From NCBI RefSeq assembly GCF_006334915.2, contig NZ_VDMA02000003.1, positions 124,001 to 188,000 of the forward strand: DNA of 64,000 bases, written 5' to 3'. Both the position numbers and the translations under genes were made by a program. A model generated the notes under the pieces. The model had not been told where the DNA came from and did no database searches. It worked only from the letters and a program-made list of their open reading frames with translations. The DNA is from Microbispora catharanthi. Lineage in GTDB: Bacteria > Actinomycetota > Actinomycetes > Streptosporangiales > Streptosporangiaceae. Position 1 is the first letter of the stretch. Each line of letters starts with the position of its first letter. This document shows positions 38,536-49,537 of this stretch, piece after piece.

Positions 38536-39489
38536 GTGCCGCGCCTGCTGAACCGCCTGCGCTCCAGCCCGCTGCTGCGGGTGCTGCTGGCCCTGGTCGC
38601 GCTCGCCTTCCTGGCGTACGGCCTGGCCCGGAACTGGACGGAGACCTCCGCCGCCCTGTCGCGGCTGTCGTGGTGGTCGCTCGGGACCTCGTTCCTGGCC
38701 GTGCTCGCCGGGCTGGGATTCATGCTGGTCGCCTGGCGCGACATCCTCGCCGGGCTCGGCTCGCCCCTGCCGCTGCGCGTGGCCGCACGGGTGCTGTTCG
38801 TCGGACAGCTCGGCAAGTACATCCCCGGCTCGGTCTGGGCGTTCGCCGCGATGATCGAGCTGGCCCGCGACCACGGCGCGCCGCCGCGGCGGACGTTCAG
38901 CGCCACCGCTCTCGGCCTGGTGACCTCCCTGGGCTGCGCGCTCGCCCTCGCCGCGGCCACGCTGTCGCAGCAGATCGCCAGGCAGGCGTGGTGGCTGCTC
39001 GCACTGGTCCCGCTCATCCTCGTCGGCCTCCACCCGCGGGTGATGACCTGGGGGCTCAACCTCGCCCTGCGCGTCGCCCGCAGGGAGCCGCTCGACCGGG
39101 TGCTCAGCGGCGCGGAGATGGCCAAGGCCGCCGCCTGGACGATGGCCGGCTGGCTGGTGTACGGCGTTCACCTGTGGGTCCTCGTCGGCGGTGTGCGCCC
39201 GGCGGGCCCGTCCCTGTACGCCGTCGCGGCCGGGGCGTACGCGCTGGCCTGGGCCACGGGCATCCTCACGGTCGTGGTGCCCGCCGGGATCGGTGTGCGG
39301 GAGGGCGCGATGGTCGTGGCGCTGGCCCCGGTGCTCGACACGCCGAGGGCGCTGGCCATCGCCGTGGTGTCCCGCGTGATGTTCACCGTCGCCGACGCCG
39401 CCTGGGCCGGGCTCGGCTTCCTGCTCGCCCGCGGCCGCACCGCCCCGGCCGGTCAGCTCTCCGACGCGGCCAGCAACGTGTCCGCGTAG
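38536..39489 (+). CDS. UPF0104 / lysylphosphatidylglycerol synthase TM-region family protein (copy 2)
   Basis: A 317-residue paralogue of the gene at 36615, sharing FVGQLGKYIPGSVWAF, the LVGLHPRVM loop and VVPAGIGVREGAMVVALAP. About eight helices. GTG at 38536 is the apparent start, with TCTGGGGCGC upstream. Its last 37 bases overlap the convergent GT4 gene. Two flippase-like proteins flanking a methyltransferase suggest two related lipid-linked substrates or two steps of one route; that is inference. Confidence 0.88.
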   Translation: MPRLLNRLRSSPLLRVLLALVALAFLAYGLARNWTETSAALSRLSWWSLGTSFLAVLAGLGFMLVAWRDILAGLGSPLPLRVAARVLFVGQLGKYIPGSVWAFAAMIELARDHGAPPRRTFSATALGLVTSLGCALALAAATLSQQIARQAWWLLALVPLILVGLHPRVMTWGLNLALRVARREPLDRVLSGAEMAKAAAWTMAGWLVYGVHLWVLVGGVRPAGPSLYAVAAGAYALAWATGILTVVVPAGIGVREGAMVVALAPVLDTPRALAIAVVSRVMFTVADAAWAGLGFLLARGRTAPAGQLSDAASNVSA

Positions 39490-40535
39490 GCGGCCCAGTG
39501 CGGCTCGGGATCGACGGGCGCGACGCCCGCCCGCAGCCGCTCCGGCGTCCCCGGCTCGTAGAACCGCTTGATCGCCTCCGCCAGCGCGCCGGCCGAACCC
39601 GGCTCCACCAGCAGGCCGTCCACATCGTCGCGTACGTTGTCGGGCAGCGCCCCCACCCGGGTGGCGATCACCGGCACGCCGTGCTCGTGACCGAGCCACA
39701 CGTTCTGGCTTGCGGTCGCCGACCGGTAGGGCAGCACCAGCGCGTCGGCCCCGGCGAACAGCCCGGGAACGTCCTCGGCCGCCACGTATCCCGGCCGGAT
39801 CTCGACCCGGCCGGCCAGACCGAGCCGGGCGATCAGGGCGTGGGTGTCGTCCAGGCCGCCCCAGAACTCACCGGCGATCGTCAGCCGTACGTCGGGCACC
39901 TGCGCGAGCGCCTCAAGCAGCAGGTCGAGCCCCTTGTAGGGCCGGACGATGCCGAAGAACAGCAGCCTGCCCTGGGGCCCCCGGCCCGCCGCCTCCCGCG
40001 CGCCGCGCACGGGCAGGTGCGGTGCGAGGGCGGCCACCCGCACCGGCGCGTCGGTGAGCGCGCGGGCGAGGTCCGCCTGCTGCTCCGAATGGGCGAGCAC
40101 GCCGTCCACCCGGCGCAGCAGCGCCTTCATCAGCGGCCTGTCGTACGGCTTGGTCTCGTGCGGCAGCACGTTGTGACACAGTGCGACCACGCGCGCCCGG
40201 CGGCGCAGGCCGTACAGGATGCCGAGGTACGCGGGCACCTGCACCGGGCTGAGCACGGCGAGCACGACCAGGTCGGCCCCGCGCAGCCGCCGCCCGCAGG
40301 CCACCCAGCCGTCCGGCCGCCGCCAGTCGAGGTCGCGGCGGGTGCCGGGGTAGGGCTCGCCCTCGGGGCTGTCGATCGTCTGCTGCCCGGGGTACAGGAA
40401 CGAGGGGTACTGCGCCCGCCACGACTCGATGACCACGTCGTGGCCCCGCGCCCGCAGCCGGTGGGCCAGCTCGGTGGTGTGCTGCGCCCCGCCGCCCTTG
40501 TACGGATACGTCGGGCCGACGATCGCGATCCTCAC
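39453..40535 (-). CDS. GT4-type glycosyltransferase
   Basis: A 360-residue GT-B enzyme. IVGPTYPYKGGGAQHTTELA is the N-terminal acceptor-side motif; VVALCHNVLPHE, GRLLFFGIVRPYKGLDLLLE and the donor-side ATASQNVWLGHEHGVPVIAT follow. The EX7E first Glu is replaced by a Gln/Asn-rich loop, as in some members. Its GTG start overlaps the upstream DPM-like GT2 stop by four bases (GTGA), so the two are coupled and may act in sequence on one lipid acceptor. Specificity unknown. Confidence 0.9.
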   Translation of the reverse strand: MRIAIVGPTYPYKGGGAQHTTELAHRLRARGHDVVIESWRAQYPSFLYPGQQTIDSPEGEPYPGTRRDLDWRRPDGWVACGRRLRGADLVVLAVLSPVQVPAYLGILYGLRRRARVVALCHNVLPHETKPYDRPLMKALLRRVDGVLAHSEQQADLARALTDAPVRVAALAPHLPVRGAREAAGRGPQGRLLFFGIVRPYKGLDLLLEALAQVPDVRLTIAGEFWGGLDDTHALIARLGLAGRVEIRPGYVAAEDVPGLFAGADALVLPYRSATASQNVWLGHEHGVPVIATRVGALPDNVRDDVDGLLVEPGSAGALAEAIKRFYEPGTPERLRAGVAPVDPEPHWAAYADTLLAASES

Positions 40536-41467
40536 ACATCACCCCGAGATCGCACGATCAGGTCGGCCAGCAGGGCCACCGCCCCGATCAGCATGCCGGA
40601 CAGGAAGGTCACGACGGTGTTGCTGGTGAGGTAGAAGGCCAGGTGGCTGATCATGTCGTACACGCCCTTGACCAGGCCGATCCCGACGAGCCAGAGCGCG
40701 GGCGGCATGAGCACCTTGAGCGGGTTGAAGTACATGACCATCCGCAGCACCTGCAGGATGTAGCGGTAGGCGTCGGAGACGAAGTTGAACTTCGACTTCC
40801 CGGCCCGCTTCGCGTACTCGATCGGCAGGTAGTAGACGTCGTGCTGGTTCGACATGAACGCCAGCGTGATCGTCGTGACGCAGGAGAAGCCGGGGGGCAG
40901 CAGCCGCAGGTAGGGCTTGGCGACCGACTTGCGGAAGGCCCGCAGGCCGGAGTTGAGGTCGGGGATCTTCTGTCCCGCCAGCCGCTCGGCCACCTTGCGG
41001 ATGAACCACTTGGCCGGCACGCGCAGGAACTTGTGCGAGCCCTCCTCCGTGGTGCGCGCGCCGACGACCTGGTCGATCGTCTGGTCCTTCTCCAGGATCT
41101 GCACCAGCTCGGGGATGCGTTCGTTCGGGTAGCTCATGTCGGCGTCGGTCCACACGACGATCTCGCCGCGGGCCTCCTGGCTGCCGATCCTGCGTACGGT
41201 GCCCGAGCCCCCGTTGCGGTGGAACGCCCTGATCCGCATGTGCGGGAAGCGCGGCGCGGCCTCCTGCAGGCGCGCGAGCGTCTCGTCGGTGGAACAGTCG
41301 TCCACGGCCAGCAGTTCGTAGGTGTATCCGCTGGCGTCCATGGCCGCGCAGATGCGCTCGACCTCGTCGATGACGTGGTCCTGCTCGTTGTAACACGGCA
41401 GGACTATCGTGACGTACGGGGTTTCTGCGGGAGTCACGGCGCTTCCAGAGGTCTCGGGCGTGGTCAC
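40532..41467 (-). CDS. Polyprenyl-phosphate glycosyltransferase, DPM-like GT2
   Basis: A 311-residue GT2 enzyme that loads a sugar from a nucleotide donor onto polyprenyl phosphate. VTIVLPCYNEQDHVIDEV, LAVDDCSTDET, VVWTDADMSYP (metal-binding) and DLNSGLRAFRKSVA are typical of dolichyl-phosphate mannosyl/glucosyltransferases. Two C-terminal helices (VLMPPALWLVGIGLVKG and VVTFLSGMLIGAVALLADLI) anchor it. The GTG start is followed by a short disordered lead (TTPETSGSAVT). Its product would feed GT-C enzymes, two of which lie downstream in this window. Confidence 0.92.
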   Translation of the reverse strand: MTTPETSGSAVTPAETPYVTIVLPCYNEQDHVIDEVERICAAMDASGYTYELLAVDDCSTDETLARLQEAAPRFPHMRIRAFHRNGGSGTVRRIGSQEARGEIVVWTDADMSYPNERIPELVQILEKDQTIDQVVGARTTEEGSHKFLRVPAKWFIRKVAERLAGQKIPDLNSGLRAFRKSVAKPYLRLLPPGFSCVTTITLAFMSNQHDVYYLPIEYAKRAGKSKFNFVSDAYRYILQVLRMVMYFNPLKVLMPPALWLVGIGLVKGVYDMISHLAFYLTSNTVVTFLSGMLIGAVALLADLIVRSRGDV

Positions 41468-41530
41468 GTCCGGCTAGGCTACTCTGCCCCACCAAATCGC
41501 GGTCTCACTTCGAATCTCCTCACCCCGCCG

Positions 41531-42388
41531 CTACAGGGGGCGAACGTGCCGCACCACCTTCACGACGCCCGGCATACCGGCGAAGGCCCGCTGCACCTGG
41601 GCGAAATCCCACGGGCCGGCGAACTTCACGTGGAAGGCCTCCGGCATCAGGTCCGCGTGGTAGAACTCCGGCCGGTCCACCCACTGCACGTGACGCATGA
41701 CGGCCAGGGCGTGCTCGGCGTCCTCGAAATAGATCTCGTCAACGCCGGGCAGGGCGCGGATGCGGCCGAGCACGGCCTGCCGGTCCGCCAGGCCGCCCTC
41801 GCAGTCCTTCCAGCACAGCCGGACCGCCACGTCGGCCCTGCCCCACCAGGGGTCGTCCCGATAGGACTCGACATAGAAGACCCCCGGAAGCCGCTGCACC
41901 TCGCCGAGGACCCGCCGCCAGTTCCCATGCGCCAGGACACCGCCGTACACCGCGCGCCTCACGAGATATTCGTCGAGGATGTCGCCGATGCGTTCGTTCT
42001 GGCGCGCGATGGCGAGGGCCTGCGCCGGCGTGAGTCGCCGGTATCCCCGGGTCTCCGCGTGGCTCGCGAGCACGCGCTCGACCGCGCGCCGCTGGGCCGC
42101 CGTCGCCGCGCCCGACGGACAGGTCTCGTCCGAGGGCTGCGATTCGCCGGACAACTGCCCGTCATAAGGGGACGGGGGCCCGCACAGGTGGACCAGGAAG
42201 GTGCCCGTACGGGGCCACGGTCCGTCCGGCGGGGACGAAGGCTCCCCGGAGGCCCGGTAGGCGAACACCCCTCCGGTCACCAGCGCCGCGACGAGCACGA
42301 CCGCCGCGATGACGAGCGGCCTTCTCCGCCGGCCATCGCTCTCGCCGATCGTCATCTCCTCGATCTGAGGCTCCTCGGGAAGTGTCAT
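41531..42388 (-). CDS. Membrane-anchored protein with two FtsX-ectodomain-like repeats (copy 2)
   Basis: A 285-residue protein with one helix (about 25-45) and two repeats of an FtsX extracellular-domain-like unit. The second is clearest: VRLCWKDCEGGLADRQAVL, ALPGVDEIYFEDAEHALAV, DLMPEAFHVKFAGPWDF and FAGMPGVVKVVRHV match the order of strand, Cys pair, V.F..AEHA, LP.SF.VK and GV..V in FtsX ectodomains. The FtsX permease helices are missing. It starts inside the stop of copy 1 (ATGA). FtsX ectodomains bind and activate NlpC/P60-type hydrolases; this protein could bind such enzymes without FtsE/FtsX. Function is inferred. Confidence 0.75.
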   Translation of the reverse strand: MTLPEEPQIEEMTIGESDGRRRRPLVIAAVVLVAALVTGGVFAYRASGEPSSPPDGPWPRTGTFLVHLCGPPSPYDGQLSGESQPSDETCPSGAATAAQRRAVERVLASHAETRGYRRLTPAQALAIARQNERIGDILDEYLVRRAVYGGVLAHGNWRRVLGEVQRLPGVFYVESYRDDPWWGRADVAVRLCWKDCEGGLADRQAVLGRIRALPGVDEIYFEDAEHALAVMRHVQWVDRPEFYHADLMPEAFHVKFAGPWDFAQVQRAFAGMPGVVKVVRHVRPL

Positions 42389-43278
42389 GACACCGGCACC
42401 ACCTGGGCGACGCCGGGCATAGGGAGGAAGATCTTCTCCATTTCGGTCTTCGCCGGTGGACGGTCGAGCGCGATGTAGAACGCCTCAGGCAGGGCGCGCA
42501 CGTCGACATCCTCAGCGTCCGGCCGCCAGAGGATCCGCCGCCTGTTCACGCGCGCGTGGGCGGCGTCCTCGACGTACACGGCCTTCACCCCGCCGAGGTC
42601 CCTGATCCGGTCGAGCACGGCCGCCTTTTCCTCTTCTGAGACCCTTTCACGTCCCCGGCACCGCGGATAGTCGCTGCCGATCTCCGGACAGAGCGCGATC
42701 CCGATGTCGGCGACTCCTCTCCAGAGACTGTCGCCGTAAATCTCTGTGGCCAAGACGCCGCGCACGTCGTCGATGCGGAGCCGGACCGCCTCCCAGTCCC
42801 CGGGACCGAGAGTGGCTTGGTAGGACTCGGGCATCTCGTCGACTCTCGTTTTCCGCACGAACTCCAGACCCGCCGGGTCATCACCGGCACTCCTCCGGAA
42901 TTTCTCGTACGCCTGTTCCTTCGTCTCGAAGGAGAAACCGCGAAGTTCCGGGAGCGACCTGAGCGCGGCCTCGATCGCCCGCTTGTCATCGGCGGTCGCG
43001 GCACCGTACAGGCAGTTCGGCGCGTACTCGTCCGGACCGTCCACGCACAGGAAGACCGACAACCTCCCGGTGAGCGGGGCGGGGGTTTCGGGCGGGGGCA
43101 GCGGCCAGCGGGAGTGCTCGTAGATCCGCCACCCGGCGAGCCCGAGTACGGCGAGTCCCCCCAGGAGCACGACCACCAGTCCGGCGACGGCCGGCGGCTT
43201 CCGGAGAAGGCCCGTCCTGGATTCCGGCTCACGACGATCGTCGCCGAAGGACGATTCCTCCATCGCAGGGGAATTCAC
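42385..43278 (-). CDS. Membrane-anchored protein with two FtsX-ectodomain-like repeats (copy 1)
   Basis: A 297-residue paralogue of the gene at 41531. One helix (about 29-52) precedes two repeats. The first has LSVFLCVDGPDEYAPNCLYG, FSFETKEQAYEKFRRS and MPESYQATLGP; the second has IALCPEIGSDYPRCRG, DLGGVKAVYVEDAAHARV and ALPEAFYIALDRPPAKTE. The KEQAYEKF motif is the most FtsX-like. No FtsX permease segment or FtsE partner is nearby. GTG at 43278 is preferred over ATG at 43263, which lacks a Shine-Dalgarno. The pair arose by tandem duplication and is co-translated. Confidence 0.78.
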   Translation of the reverse strand: MNSPAMEESSFGDDRREPESRTGLLRKPPAVAGLVVVLLGGLAVLGLAGWRIYEHSRWPLPPPETPAPLTGRLSVFLCVDGPDEYAPNCLYGAATADDKRAIEAALRSLPELRGFSFETKEQAYEKFRRSAGDDPAGLEFVRKTRVDEMPESYQATLGPGDWEAVRLRIDDVRGVLATEIYGDSLWRGVADIGIALCPEIGSDYPRCRGRERVSEEEKAAVLDRIRDLGGVKAVYVEDAAHARVNRRRILWRPDAEDVDVRALPEAFYIALDRPPAKTEMEKIFLPMPGVAQVVPVS

Positions 43279-43294
43279 ACGCCGAACCCTAGAT

Positions 43295-45406
43295 CTATTG
43301 GGTGGGCACGGTCATCCAGACGTCGATGGTGAGCGACCATGTGCCGTTGGGCGGGTCCACCAGCGAGCGTTCGTCCTGCCGGGTGTGCAGGCTCATCACC
43401 CGGGTCGCCGGGCCGTACGCCATGAGCTGCTCGGGCTCGGCGGCGAGCAGCACAGGCACGCGGCCGGTGCGCCGGACGGCCTCGACCAGGCGCAGCACGT
43501 CGGCCCGGGGCGGCACGTCGGAGCCCCGGGGATAGACCACCCGGGCGGTCGGCAGCCCGCACTGGCCGCGCACGACCTGCGTGAGCCGGTCGCCCGTGAC
43601 GCGTTCGGCGATGAGCACGGAGGCGTTCGCCGGGATCGCCCGGCACAGGCCCGCCACCGCGGCGGCCTCTCCCCTGTTGACCGGCGTGAACGCGGTGCCG
43701 ATCGAGGTGATCGCGGGCGGGACCGCCAGCAGCAGCGCCCCCGCCGCGACAGCGGCCCGTGAGCGTCCCCGGCGGGCGGCGAACCAGCGCGTGCGCGCGA
43801 GACGCCGCGAGAGCCACCGCAGCCCCCAGACGGCGAGCAGCACCAGGCCGGGGACGACGATCGGCACCAGCCTGCGGGAGGCGAAGGGGTGGTCGGGGGT
43901 GATCGCGGGACGCCAGAGCGTCGTCACCGTCGTCCACCCGATCACGGCCAGCGGCAGCAGCCAGCCGAACTCCTCACCCCTGGTCAGGCGGCGGGCGAGC
44001 ACGGCCGCCGCCACGGTCGCCAGCACGACGGCGGGGATCCCGACATACCAGAAGACCCAGTCGAGGGAGTGCTCGTAGTACAGCCGGGACATGTCCTTCG
44101 CGAGGCCGTTGGCGACCTGCGTCTTCTCGATGAAGTCGGCCGTGAGCCTGTCCTCGGGCGTGACCGCGTCACGACGCACGGTCTGCACCCAGGGCCGTAC
44201 GGCGAAGCCCGCCATGACCAGCACGACCAGGGCAGCGGCGGCGTTCGGCAGCCACCCGGCTCCCGTGAGGAGCCCGCGCGCGCGGACGGCGATCCAGGGC
44301 GCGAGAGCCGTGCCGGCGACCGTGAGCGCCACGACGACGGCGCAGATCGCGAGCAGGGGCAGGAGTGAGCCCGACAGATACTCCAGGTATGGCCGGGCGA
44401 GGACGTAGCCGCCGGTGAACCCCCACAGGCCGCCCACGACCAGGCCGGTCAGCAGGGGCACGCCCAGCCGCCCCTCGGGGAAGGGCCTCGCGCGGGGGAT
44501 CCGCCGGAGCGCGACGAGCACCCCGGCGAAGGCGAGCACGGGCAGCACGTCGCGCAGGCCGTCGATGCGCACCAGCAGCGCCAGCCCGAACGACAGCCCC
44601 GCGAGCGCGGCGGACGGGAAGCCCGCACCGGGCAGTGCCGCTCTGAGCCGGGCCCGGGCGTCGAGCAGCAGGTTCATCGCGCCGAACAGCAGGATCAGCG
44701 AGGGGATCTCGCTGAACGTCGTCCGCGACGTGTAGATGATCGGCAGGCTGACCGCGAACACGAGGGCGGCAAGGGGCGCCCAGCGCGCGCCCGCGAGCCG
44801 CGCGGCGGTCCCTGCGACGGTGAGCACCGCGAGCGCGCCCAGCACGGGCGGCACGAGCAGCAGGCCCGGGACACCGCCCAGCCAGTGGCCGATGGCGTAG
44901 GTCATCGGCGGCCCGGCCATGAACTGGGGGACGATCCCGCCGCCGGTCATGTAGACGCCCATGCTGTCGAAGCGCAGAGCGGGATCGGGACCGCCGAAGT
45001 CCCCCACCGGGATCGGCAGCGACCCGTGCCGGGCGAGCCAGACGGCGTACTGCGCGTAGGTCGACGGGTCACGCCGGACGATCAGCTGCTCGCCGTGCAG
45101 GAGCCCGTTGAACACTCCCGACCCGAGTGCCACGGCGAGTGTGGCCGCCGTCGCCCAGCGGTGCGGCGTTGCGGTCGCGGGCAGGCGGCGCAGGCCCGCC
45201 GCGCACAGCAGGAGGGCGGCGGCGCCGCCGAGCACCGCCGTGGGCAGCGGCCGGAACCACCCGAGCAGCAGCAGCGGCAGCCCGGCGAGCAGCCACCCGC
45301 TCAGCGCGAGCGCGGGCACGACGGAGACGGCCGCGAGCGTCCTGCCCGCCGCCTCCTGCGCCGATGGCAGCCGTGTGCGGCCACGTGAGTGGCCGGATCC
45401 GTGCAC
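43295..45406 (-). CDS. GT-C-type membrane glycosyltransferase-like protein
   Basis: A protein of about 703 residues with 12 or more helices and a soluble C-terminus (about 600-703). The first extracytoplasmic loop holds RRDPSTYAQYAVWLARHG, the acidic motif expected in GT-C enzymes, and SRTTFSEIPSLIL follows. Such proteins use polyprenyl-phosphate sugars on the outer face. GTG at 45406 is chosen because upstream frame is Arg/Gly noise; GGGTG lies seven bases before it. The start codon sits in a small hairpin (GTGCACTGGAATGCAC, 45401-45416). It is divergent from another GT-C gene. Confidence 0.82.
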   Translation of the reverse strand: MHGSGHSRGRTRLPSAQEAAGRTLAAVSVVPALALSGWLLAGLPLLLLGWFRPLPTAVLGGAAALLLCAAGLRRLPATATPHRWATAATLAVALGSGVFNGLLHGEQLIVRRDPSTYAQYAVWLARHGSLPIPVGDFGGPDPALRFDSMGVYMTGGGIVPQFMAGPPMTYAIGHWLGGVPGLLLVPPVLGALAVLTVAGTAARLAGARWAPLAALVFAVSLPIIYTSRTTFSEIPSLILLFGAMNLLLDARARLRAALPGAGFPSAALAGLSFGLALLVRIDGLRDVLPVLAFAGVLVALRRIPRARPFPEGRLGVPLLTGLVVGGLWGFTGGYVLARPYLEYLSGSLLPLLAICAVVVALTVAGTALAPWIAVRARGLLTGAGWLPNAAAALVVLVMAGFAVRPWVQTVRRDAVTPEDRLTADFIEKTQVANGLAKDMSRLYYEHSLDWVFWYVGIPAVVLATVAAAVLARRLTRGEEFGWLLPLAVIGWTTVTTLWRPAITPDHPFASRRLVPIVVPGLVLLAVWGLRWLSRRLARTRWFAARRGRSRAAVAAGALLLAVPPAITSIGTAFTPVNRGEAAAVAGLCRAIPANASVLIAERVTGDRLTQVVRGQCGLPTARVVYPRGSDVPPRADVLRLVEAVRRTGRVPVLLAAEPEQLMAYGPATRVMSLHTRQDERSLVDPPNGTWSLTIDVWMTVPTQ

Positions 45407-47486: not shown

Positions 47487-47606
47487 GTGTGCGAGCGAAC
47501 CAGTAATCCTTGCGGCCTCTCGCCCACTCGTCCGGCCGCCAGACTGTGCCGTACGGCCGCCGCGCCGTGCCGCCCGGCTGTCGCTTCCTGGGCAGGCGTG
47601 CGGTGA
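47487..47606 (+). CDS. Possible small leader ORF coupled to the LCP gene
   Basis: A 39-codon frame from GTG at 47487 to TGA at 47604-47606. AAGGAGG (47476-47482) sits four bases before the GTG and is the strongest Shine-Dalgarno in this region, whereas the LCP start itself has almost none. The TGA overlaps the LCP GTG (GTGA at 47603-47606), so translation would be coupled. The peptide begins MCERTSNPCGLSP and has four Cys (2, 9, 21, 28) and several rare Arg/Ser/Asn codons early on. It resembles no protein I know; a regulatory leader peptide is one reading, and a chance frame beside a misplaced LCP start is the other. Confidence 0.45.
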   Translation: MCERTSNPCGLSPTRPAARLCRTAAAPCRPAVASWAGVR

Positions 47607-49537
47607 GCGAGCGCAGGCGCGTCGCCGCGCGTTCCAGTCCTCCGCAGGCTCCGTCCGACCAGAGGGTCTGGGGTCCCCCGCAAGACGGCTCGTACGACGG
47701 CGCCTTCGAGCCCCCCCGGGGCCGCAGGGGGGCGCCCGCGCCCGCCGGGTACGCCGACATGCCGGTGGCCACCGCCCCCGCGGGCTACGCGGAGATGCCG
47801 GGGAGACGAGGCGGGCAGCGACCGCCCAGGGACGACTACCCGCCGGAGGCGTACGACGAGGGACGCCGCCGAGGCGGGCGGCGCGCCGAGCCGAGCGGGC
47901 CACCCGAGCCCCTTCACGAGGAGGAGCCGCCGCGGCGGCGTGGCCGCAGGCGCGGCGGCGACGAGGAGACCGGCTACAGCCCGGCCCCCACCGCGCCCAC
48001 CGCCCCGAGCCGCGCGTCCAGAGGTGGCGGCGATCTGCCCCCTCCGGACGGCAGGCCGTCCCGCCGGCGCGGCGGGGGCGGCGGCCGCCGGTCCGGGCTG
48101 GGGATCGGCGGCTGGATCAGCGTCGTGCTCACGTGCGTGCTGGTCATCGGCACGCTGACGGCCTACAAGGTCTACCGGAGCACGATCGGCCTGATCAACA
48201 GAGGCGCGTCCACCGACGACCTCGACAAGAACCGCCCCGTCAACGAGACCGGCGCGATCAACGTGCTGCTCGTGGGCTCCGACACCCGCGCCGGAGACAA
48301 CAAGAAGTACGGCCAGCACCTGGTCAACGACGGCGAGCGCACCGACACGATCATGCTGCTGCACGTGTCGCCCAACCGCGACGGGGCGACGCTGCTCAGC
48401 TTCCCCCGCGACTCCATGGTGATGATCCCCGCCTGTTACAACAGGAACAGGACGCTCGTTCCCGCGCACCTGGGCATGATCAACTCCGCGTTCTCCGACG
48501 GCGGGATGATCTGCACGCGCCGGACGATCGAGAGCCTCACCGGGATCCGCGTCCACCACTACGTGAAGGTGGACTTCACCGGCTTCAAGTCCATCGTGAA
48601 CGCGCTCGGCGGCATCGAGATCTGCCTGCCGCAGGACGTGAACGACAAGCAGTCGAAGCTCACGCTCGCCAAGGGCAAGCACCTGGTGAAGGGCGAGACC
48701 GCGCTGGCCTACGTACGGCTGCGGCACGGACTCGGCGACGGGAGCGACATCTCCCGGATCAAACGCCAGCAGGTGTTCCTCTCCCAGGTGGTCAAGAAGG
48801 CGACCAGCAGCGCCCTGCTCACCGACGTCGGCAAGCTGCAGAACTTCATCGCCGCCGCGGCCAAGTCCGTCACCATGGACGACGCGCTCAACACCGAAGA
48901 GCTCATCAAGATCGCGCAGAGCGCGCAGAAGCTCTCGGCTAAGGGTTTCAAGGCCACCACCGTGCCGTGGGAGCCGTACATCGCCGACAAGAACCGCGTC
49001 CAGTGGAAGCAGCCGGCCGCGGGCAACCTCTTCAAGGCCATCGCGAACGACACCGAGGTGGCCCCCACCGCCAGCGCCGCCCCGAGCGCGGCCGCCTCGC
49101 CGTCCGGGCCCGTGGTCACCAAGCCGCAGCAGGTCAAGGTGCAGGTGTTCAACGGCACCAACACCCCCGGCCGGGGCAAGGAGGTCGCCGAGGAGCTCTC
49201 CGGGCTCGGCTTCAACGTCGTCGGCGTCGGCGACGCGAGGAAGCCCGACGGCACCGACCAGCCGAAGACCGTGGTCCGCTACACCGGTCAGGGCTGGAAC
49301 TACTCGAAGATCCTGGTCGGCAAGCTGATCAACCCCGTCAGCCCGGAGACCGGGAAGGTAGCGAGCGGCCCGGTCACGCCGTTCACCCCGTCCTCGCCCT
49401 CGCCGGACGCGCCCAAGGGCAAGGTGCGCGGGCCGATCATCCAGCTCGTCATCGGCGCCGACTGGAAGGGCGTGCGCGTCCCCCTGCAGGTCGGGGACAA
49501 CGCGGTGACCTCCGAGACCAACATCTGCGCGAGCTGA
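47603..49537 (+). CDS. LytR-CpsA-Psr (LCP) family protein with LytR C-terminal domain
   Basis: A protein of about 644 residues that probably joins lipid-linked glycopolymers to peptidoglycan outside the membrane. A disordered basic N-terminus (1-165, RRRGRRRGGDEE) precedes one helix (about 168-190). The LCP domain (about 217-400) has VLLVGSDTRAG, DGERTDTIMLLHVSP, LLSFPRDSMV and RHGLGDGSDISRIKRQQVFL, including the Arg and Asp that hold the pyrophosphate. A LytR_C domain (about 515-610) has VKVQVFNGTNTPGRGKEVAEEL. GTG at 47603 is coupled to a small upstream frame; TTG at 47510 is an alternative start. M. tuberculosis has an LCP gene (Rv3267) in the matching place. Confidence 0.92.
   Translation: MSERRRVAARSSPPQAPSDQRVWGPPQDGSYDGAFEPPRGRRGAPAPAGYADMPVATAPAGYAEMPGRRGGQRPPRDDYPPEAYDEGRRRGGRRAEPSGPPEPLHEEEPPRRRGRRRGGDEETGYSPAPTAPTAPSRASRGGGDLPPPDGRPSRRRGGGGGRRSGLGIGGWISVVLTCVLVIGTLTAYKVYRSTIGLINRGASTDDLDKNRPVNETGAINVLLVGSDTRAGDNKKYGQHLVNDGERTDTIMLLHVSPNRDGATLLSFPRDSMVMIPACYNRNRTLVPAHLGMINSAFSDGGMICTRRTIESLTGIRVHHYVKVDFTGFKSIVNALGGIEICLPQDVNDKQSKLTLAKGKHLVKGETALAYVRLRHGLGDGSDISRIKRQQVFLSQVVKKATSSALLTDVGKLQNFIAAAAKSVTMDDALNTEELIKIAQSAQKLSAKGFKATTVPWEPYIADKNRVQWKQPAAGNLFKAIANDTEVAPTASAAPSAAASPSGPVVTKPQQVKVQVFNGTNTPGRGKEVAEELSGLGFNVVGVGDARKPDGTDQPKTVVRYTGQGWNYSKILVGKLINPVSPETGKVASGPVTPFTPSSPSPDAPKGKVRGPIIQLVIGADWKGVRVPLQVGDNAVTSETNICAS

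Follow-up and report, generated by a model that had tools for sequence, protein, structure and literature searches.

The window analysed here, a stretch of 64,000 nucleotides from the 9.25 Mb genome of Microbispora catharanthi, carries two adjacent genes whose products, P1 and P2, are a new variant of the already known FtsX_ECD domain. The FtsX ectodomain is known from an ATP-driven switch that controls wall hydrolases; P1 and P2 each carry two such ectodomains behind one predicted membrane helix, and the simplest mechanism for them is that of a passive extracytoplasmic adaptor. That both proteins are passive, permease-free binding adaptors of this kind is our preferred, tentative reading (probability of about 0.4). 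The pair is characterized by an FtsX-like fold, a one-helix topology (by prediction), its gene order, optional presence, fast evolution, and a recurring tail motif.

The genes for P1 (42385..43278; 297 aa) and P2 (41531..42388; 285 aa) lie on the minus strand, as do all the features of the pair given in this paragraph, and share an ATGA start/stop overlap (42385..42388). Each product consists of an N-terminal tail, one predicted membrane helix (43129..43191, about residues 30-50, in P1; 42254..42316, about residues 25-45, in P2), and two repeats. In P1, repeat 1 (42745..43068) has a porter core with a two-helix X-lobe and keeps the FtsX aromatic signature, and repeat 2 (42400..42711) has a porter core with a reduced X-lobe; in P2, repeat 1 (41858..42202) is remote and ferredoxin-like, and repeat 2 (41555..41836) has the FtsX ectodomain fold. 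The tail of P1, probably on the cytosolic side, carries the motif EESSFGDDRRE (EELSFG-type; 43228..43260), and a motif scan of tails located EEMTIG in that of P2 (42344..42361). Topology prediction gave a single helix for P1 and P2 alike, the four-helix permease topology being absent. Hidden permease helices or a frameshift were considered and rejected: both frames are intact with coding-like GC3, each contains one helix, and the GT2 gene begins 63 bases past P2. The preliminary description of the two as proteins without permease helices therefore holds also when a corrected frame is sought. A promoter scan of positions 41300-43500 yielded no promoter and one terminator-like site on the opposite strand.

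The same description had proposed a tandem paralogous pair related to the FtsX ectodomain, and this is borne out both by the Pfam FtsX_ECD model, whose cut-off P1 and P2 both pass, and by the folds of P1 repeat 1 and P2 repeat 2, which are FtsX-like rather than unrelated. Scores with the whole-protein FtsX model NF038346 (63.4 and 34.6 bits) lie below its cut-off of 250 bits. A porter core with X-lobe was recognized in P1 repeat 1 and P2 repeat 2 by predicted-structure search and in P1 repeat 2 by profile, with the X-lobe of P1 repeat 1 formed by two helices (H115-126 and H130-138 of the model). P2 repeat 1 reached 97.0% with a profile including rows from other genera, scored -1.2 bits with an FtsX-only model, and gave ferredoxin-like fold matches. 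The fold searches also returned many ferredoxin-like proteins (NikR, ACT, AsnC-type), and the first Foldseek row for P1 was an acetohydroxyacid synthase chain; kinship with these proteins was set aside, and the likeness is read as a common core instead. A chance match to FtsX_ECD was ruled out for three repeats by Pfam, profile, and fold searches. Compared with the FtsX extracellular/periplasmic domain and its systems (Pfam PF18075; PDB 4n8n, 6tpi, 6he6), P1 and P2 differ in that each chain carries two ectodomains, permease helices and an FtsE neighbor are lacking, the X-lobe of P1 repeat 2 is reduced, and P2 repeat 1 is remote. Likewise, their Cys pair is not the C73-C78 pair of Mtb FtsX, only the C73 column being held in common. 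Searching PDB sequences directly, with P1 and P2 as queries, gave nothing relevant, a search for viral relatives of P1 confirmed none, and the open-licence PMC literature, judged mostly by titles and abstract beginnings, yielded no paper describing FtsX ectodomain proteins that lack the permease.

The surroundings are those of a glycan locus, in agreement with the setting first described for the pair, with GT-C-like, GT2, GT4-type, and LCP genes nearby. Directly upstream of P1, across a 16-base gap, is the gene for a GT-C-like multi-TM protein (43295..45259, minus strand; start uncertain), labelled so from its topology and a weak match in NCBIfam (24.3 bits against a cut-off of 200), with no Pfam family. 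Downstream of P2, a 63-base spacer (41468..41530, minus strand) leads to the genes for a GT2 (Glycos_transf_2; 40532..41467, minus strand) and a GT4-type glycosyltransferase (39453..40535, minus strand), and an LCP (LytR_cpsA_psr) protein is encoded in the same locus (47510..49537, plus strand), all three by Pfam. The GT2-proximal part of the spacer is common to sites with and without ectodomain genes (four filled and three empty sites). The genes adjoining the pair are of glycosyltransferase type, and ftsE is not next to it, again as initially described; a Pfam scan of 14 genes of the locus recognized no hydrolase, and the pair has no ECF sigma gene immediately upstream or alongside. In a scan over named genomes, the order GT-C / ectodomain gene(s) / GT2 was found at 14 of 19 loci, in Microbispora, Planotetraspora, Microtetraspora, and Sphaerisporangium, the other five being three permease-type FtsX and two twin-ectodomain genes whose locus was not recognized; several of the 19 loci come from the genomes used for the family and Microbispora counts below, so these counts are not independent. 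At L121:4322-4729 and L142:4426-4851, a small gene that reads by eye as PIN-domain (VapC-type) lies between the GT-C and ectodomain genes.

Within this old glycan locus, the ectodomain genes are optional cargo between the GT-C-like and GT2 genes. GT2 is present in 104 of 120 family genomes (E 1e-60 or better), and 60 GT2 neighborhoods were sampled, one or a few per genus, setting aside genomes already in hand, further members of sampled genera, and contig-end or fragmentary places (G104, G110, G034). Ectodomain genes are at the locus in eight of the 60, L145 showing a changed order and no GT-C; G029, outside the 60, nevertheless has twin-ectodomain genes beside GT2. The GT-C to GT2 gap is shorter than 250 bases in 38 of the 54 neighborhoods where it is measurable, and the longer gaps in other genera may hold divergent ectodomain relatives below threshold. 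In Microbispora, the locus contains ectodomain genes in eight of 15 genomes (G000, G003, G004, G007, G008, G011, G012, G013), with both P1 and P2 in only three, and the remaining seven have no intact one, indicating that division and glycan synthesis in general do not need P1 and P2. Six of these seven have junctions of less than about 120 bases without a family match. Low GT-C identities in some genomes had suggested that GT-C divergence tracks the loss of ectodomain genes, an idea rejected since identity ranges from about 75% to 94% among the seven genomes without intact ones (G006, 94%; G010, 90%; G014, 89%). In the seventh genome, a 31-residue relic of a third ectodomain type remains (L088:6867-6959).

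This third type, absent from the window, stands beside P1 and P2 as one of three glycan-locus types in Microbispora and has a lipobox in place of the membrane helix (L069:10756-11649, L072:9924-10850, L077:8770-9690, L078:8743-9699); extracellular display is thus the feature common to all three. It occurs in G007, G008, G011, G012, and G013. The order is P1-P2 in G000 and G004, P1-third in G008 and G012 as well as in G003 with a truncated third gene, P1-P2-third in G013, and P2-third in G007, with the third gene alone in G011.

The same genome also contains one permease-type ftsX (G000:C33:8845-9744), located on the same contig at a distance of about 156 kb and adjoining genes that read by eye as ftsE and smpB. 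Its ectodomain is of the same family as those of P1 and P2, whereas its four helices, its single ectodomain, and its ftsE-like and smpB-like neighbors all set it apart from them. Other relatives are linked to sigma factors: at 14 of 31 loci (L037-L068, L048 excluded), the ectodomain gene directly follows, or is overlapped by, an ECF sigma gene of the same strand, as judged with a sigma model built from four of them, the match at L047 being weak (34.8 bits) and those at L056 and L068 sharing one open frame with the ectodomain. Pfam detected sigma regions 2 and 4 in all four sigma proteins scanned, one of three scanned passed the NCBIfam SigE-family cut-off, and the N-parts of the linked ectodomain proteins gave weak NCBIfam matches. 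Among the matches listed from 394 class genomes, with at most seven candidates scored per genome, those beginning at position 1 or 2 of the sigma-linked model are only in the window's own family, and the others are chiefly ectodomain-only. SigE-type ECF sigma genes overlapping genes for one-helix, single-FtsX-ectodomain proteins were seen at L064:9107-10269, L037:9446-10707, L067:9713-10908, and others. Like P1 and P2, the sigma-linked proteins (e.g., L064:9631-10269) have one TM helix and FtsX_ECD outside; unlike them, they have a longer N-part, one ectodomain as a rule, and an overlapping upstream SigE-type sigma gene. They are candidate anti-sigma factors, in which the FtsX ectodomain would act as the sensor.

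In a tree of 99 ectodomain rows and few columns, the second repeats cluster together with a single class-C row nested among them (98/87), and the remaining class-C second repeats attach to this cluster (95/80); this pattern points to the twin arrangement having arisen once. The first repeats fall with the sigma-linked ectodomains, one FtsX row, and others, the fork at the base being open, and a tie of the twin-ectodomain proteins to the sigma-linked ones may be suggested. At L066:2776-4125, one frame encodes a sigma-linked N-part and, after it, two ectodomains, which may represent an intermediate form.

P1 and P2 evolve faster than their neighbors, with dN/dS of 0.44-0.63 versus 0.08-0.26 (Nei-Gojobori; two genome pairs only). 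Relative to M. siamensis, the values are 0.44 for P1 and 0.48 for P2, against 0.08 for GT2, 0.16 for GT4, 0.19 for GT-C, and 0.08 for a methyltransferase; relative to H13382, they are 0.63 and 0.45, against 0.14, 0.22, 0.26, and 0.12, respectively. As dS is also higher in P1 and P2, recombination may contribute. The tail exceeds the ectodomains in conservation only in P1 versus H13382 (79%, against 49 and 59%); the corresponding figures are 76% against 88 and 76% for P1 versus M. siamensis, and 79% against 85 and 82% and 62% against 86 and 73% for P2 in the two genome pairs. The tail motif EE[LMI][ST][FI]G recurs across genera and is present in 20 of 31 twin-ectodomain rows, a set in which one genome is counted twice. 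Among the 11 rows that miss it are that of the window's P1 (EESSFG), two of P2, four lipoproteins, and a truncated one; it is found in none of four class-C rows. Occurrence of the motif in other proteins was considered and dismissed: a DNA pattern for it matches seven places in 15 genomes, three being P1-type tails, and the window's P1 lies outside the pattern.

With respect to the binding surface, RipC is reported to be clamped by the two Mtb FtsX ectodomains and bound via F61, F110, F113, and F122 (PMC10694151), and isolated FtsX periplasmic domains are reported to bind EnvC, two per EnvC, the one EnvC being held through the X-lobe (PMC7668044). When 99 ectodomains are aligned with that of Mtb, the 13 FtsX rows lack a counterpart of F110 and mostly carry Leu or Met at F113 and F122; thus, the Mtb cluster is not the signature of these rows. 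Instead, aromatic residues occupy Mtb columns 61, 103, and 106 in 12, 13, and 13 of the 13 FtsX rows and in 14, 15, and 15 of 15 sigma-linked rows. The first repeats of P1 have all three (5/5), whereas its second repeats have 0/5, 0/5, and 1/5. First repeats of P2 show no aromatic at 103 and 106 (0/4), column 61 being gapped where the domain call cuts off the strand, and second repeats none at any of the three columns (0/4), with other aromatics in the segment. The third type shows 4/4, 2/4, and 0/4 in its first repeat and 0/4, 0/4, and 4/4 (Trp) in its second. The full signature is therefore kept in one of the four window repeats, P1 repeat 1, and because only column 61 is among the reported RipC contacts, it denotes likeness to FtsX, not binding.

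In the adaptor reading, the N-terminal tail, probably cytosolic, and the one membrane helix would present a tandem of FtsX ectodomains on the cell exterior, so that each chain would resemble the ectodomain pair offered by an FtsX dimer to one helical partner. From this likeness, the likely job would be to bind an extracytoplasmic partner of helical or coiled-coil type, with wall hydrolases and envelope factors as candidates, and to hold it near the surface-glycan machinery encoded alongside, while the tail motif would bind something cytosolic. Since there is neither FtsE nor permease, no ATP-driven switching would occur, and the action would be holding or competing rather than activating by stroke. 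The FtsX-like folds, the two-helix X-lobe, the aromatics of P1 repeat 1, the pairwise engagement of EnvC and RipC by FtsX ectodomains, the lipobox type, and the recurring gene order and tail motif argue for such adaptors. Against them stand the three window repeats without the full aromatic signature (P2 repeat 2 having other aromatics), the lack of a recognized locus hydrolase or a clear change in NlpC/P60 number, the seven Microbispora genomes without an intact gene, a tail not consistently better conserved than the ectodomains, and lipoprotein types without the tail motif.

The preliminary description had suggested a hydrolase-control module independent of FtsEX, in which P1 and P2 recruit and activate NlpC/P60 hydrolases. 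The aromatic signature of P1 repeat 1, including the F61-equivalent position, and the reported binding of EnvC by isolated FtsX ectodomains (PMC7668044) make this possible, although unlikely given the signature in one repeat of four, the missing ATPase, the absence of a recognized hydrolase among the 14 locus genes scanned, and NlpC/P60 matches averaging 9.6 per Microbispora genome with the genes (n = 8) versus 8.9 without (n = 7); the window's own genome has 11. Descent from the ECF-sigma-linked one-ectodomain proteins, with envelope state still sensed via the tail, would accord with the tree position of the first repeats (its basal fork open), the recurring tail motif, and the two-ectodomain form at L066, but we regard it as quite improbable: no sigma gene lies beside P1 and P2 or the other glycan-locus genes examined (L116, L121, L133, L134, L136, L142, L144, and L145 being outside this check), the tails, about 25-55 residues long, do not contain the sigma-linked N-part, and the lipoprotein type could not signal inward alone.

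Two further proposals carry still lower weight. One of them, that P1 and P2 are accessory subunits of the neighboring GT-C-like protein, fixing partner or acceptor choice, draws on the 16-base gap and on a position between the GT-C-like gene and GT2 that recurs across genera; most measured loci, however, run without ectodomain genes (38 of 54 gaps below 250 bases), and the GT-C-like protein of G006 is 94% identical, yet its junction holds no ectodomain gene. The least probable is that of surface FtsX mimics that would soak up a phage, toxin, or antibiotic factor directed against FtsX or the surface glycan, for which the scattered occurrence, the tandem copies, a loss that left a relic, and the raised dN/dS could be cited. 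A Pfam scan of the 14 locus genes, in contrast, found no defence or mobile gene, a search of open-licence PMC literature gave nothing on FtsX decoys, and a tail motif recurring across genera would be superfluous for a pure decoy.

With passive adaptors retained as the preferred reading of P1 and P2, a wider proposal, which we hold just as tentatively, is that in the Streptosporangiaceae the FtsX ectodomain escaped FtsEX to become a general extracytoplasmic binding module, used in the glycan-locus twin adaptors and lipoproteins and in ECF-sigma-linked proteins that possibly report hydrolase or wall state to transcription. An ectodomain kept while the switch was dropped, and then doubled, helix- or lipid-anchored, and made optional, would let binding be separated from activation. 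Proteins of the P1/P2 type could in this way link wall cutting to surface-glycan building and, via the sigma-linked relatives, to gene expression. Elsewhere in the window's own genome, on another contig, a third orphan twin-ectodomain gene (L055:9428-10234) lies among unrelated genes, and its close relatives are found in L057 and L059.
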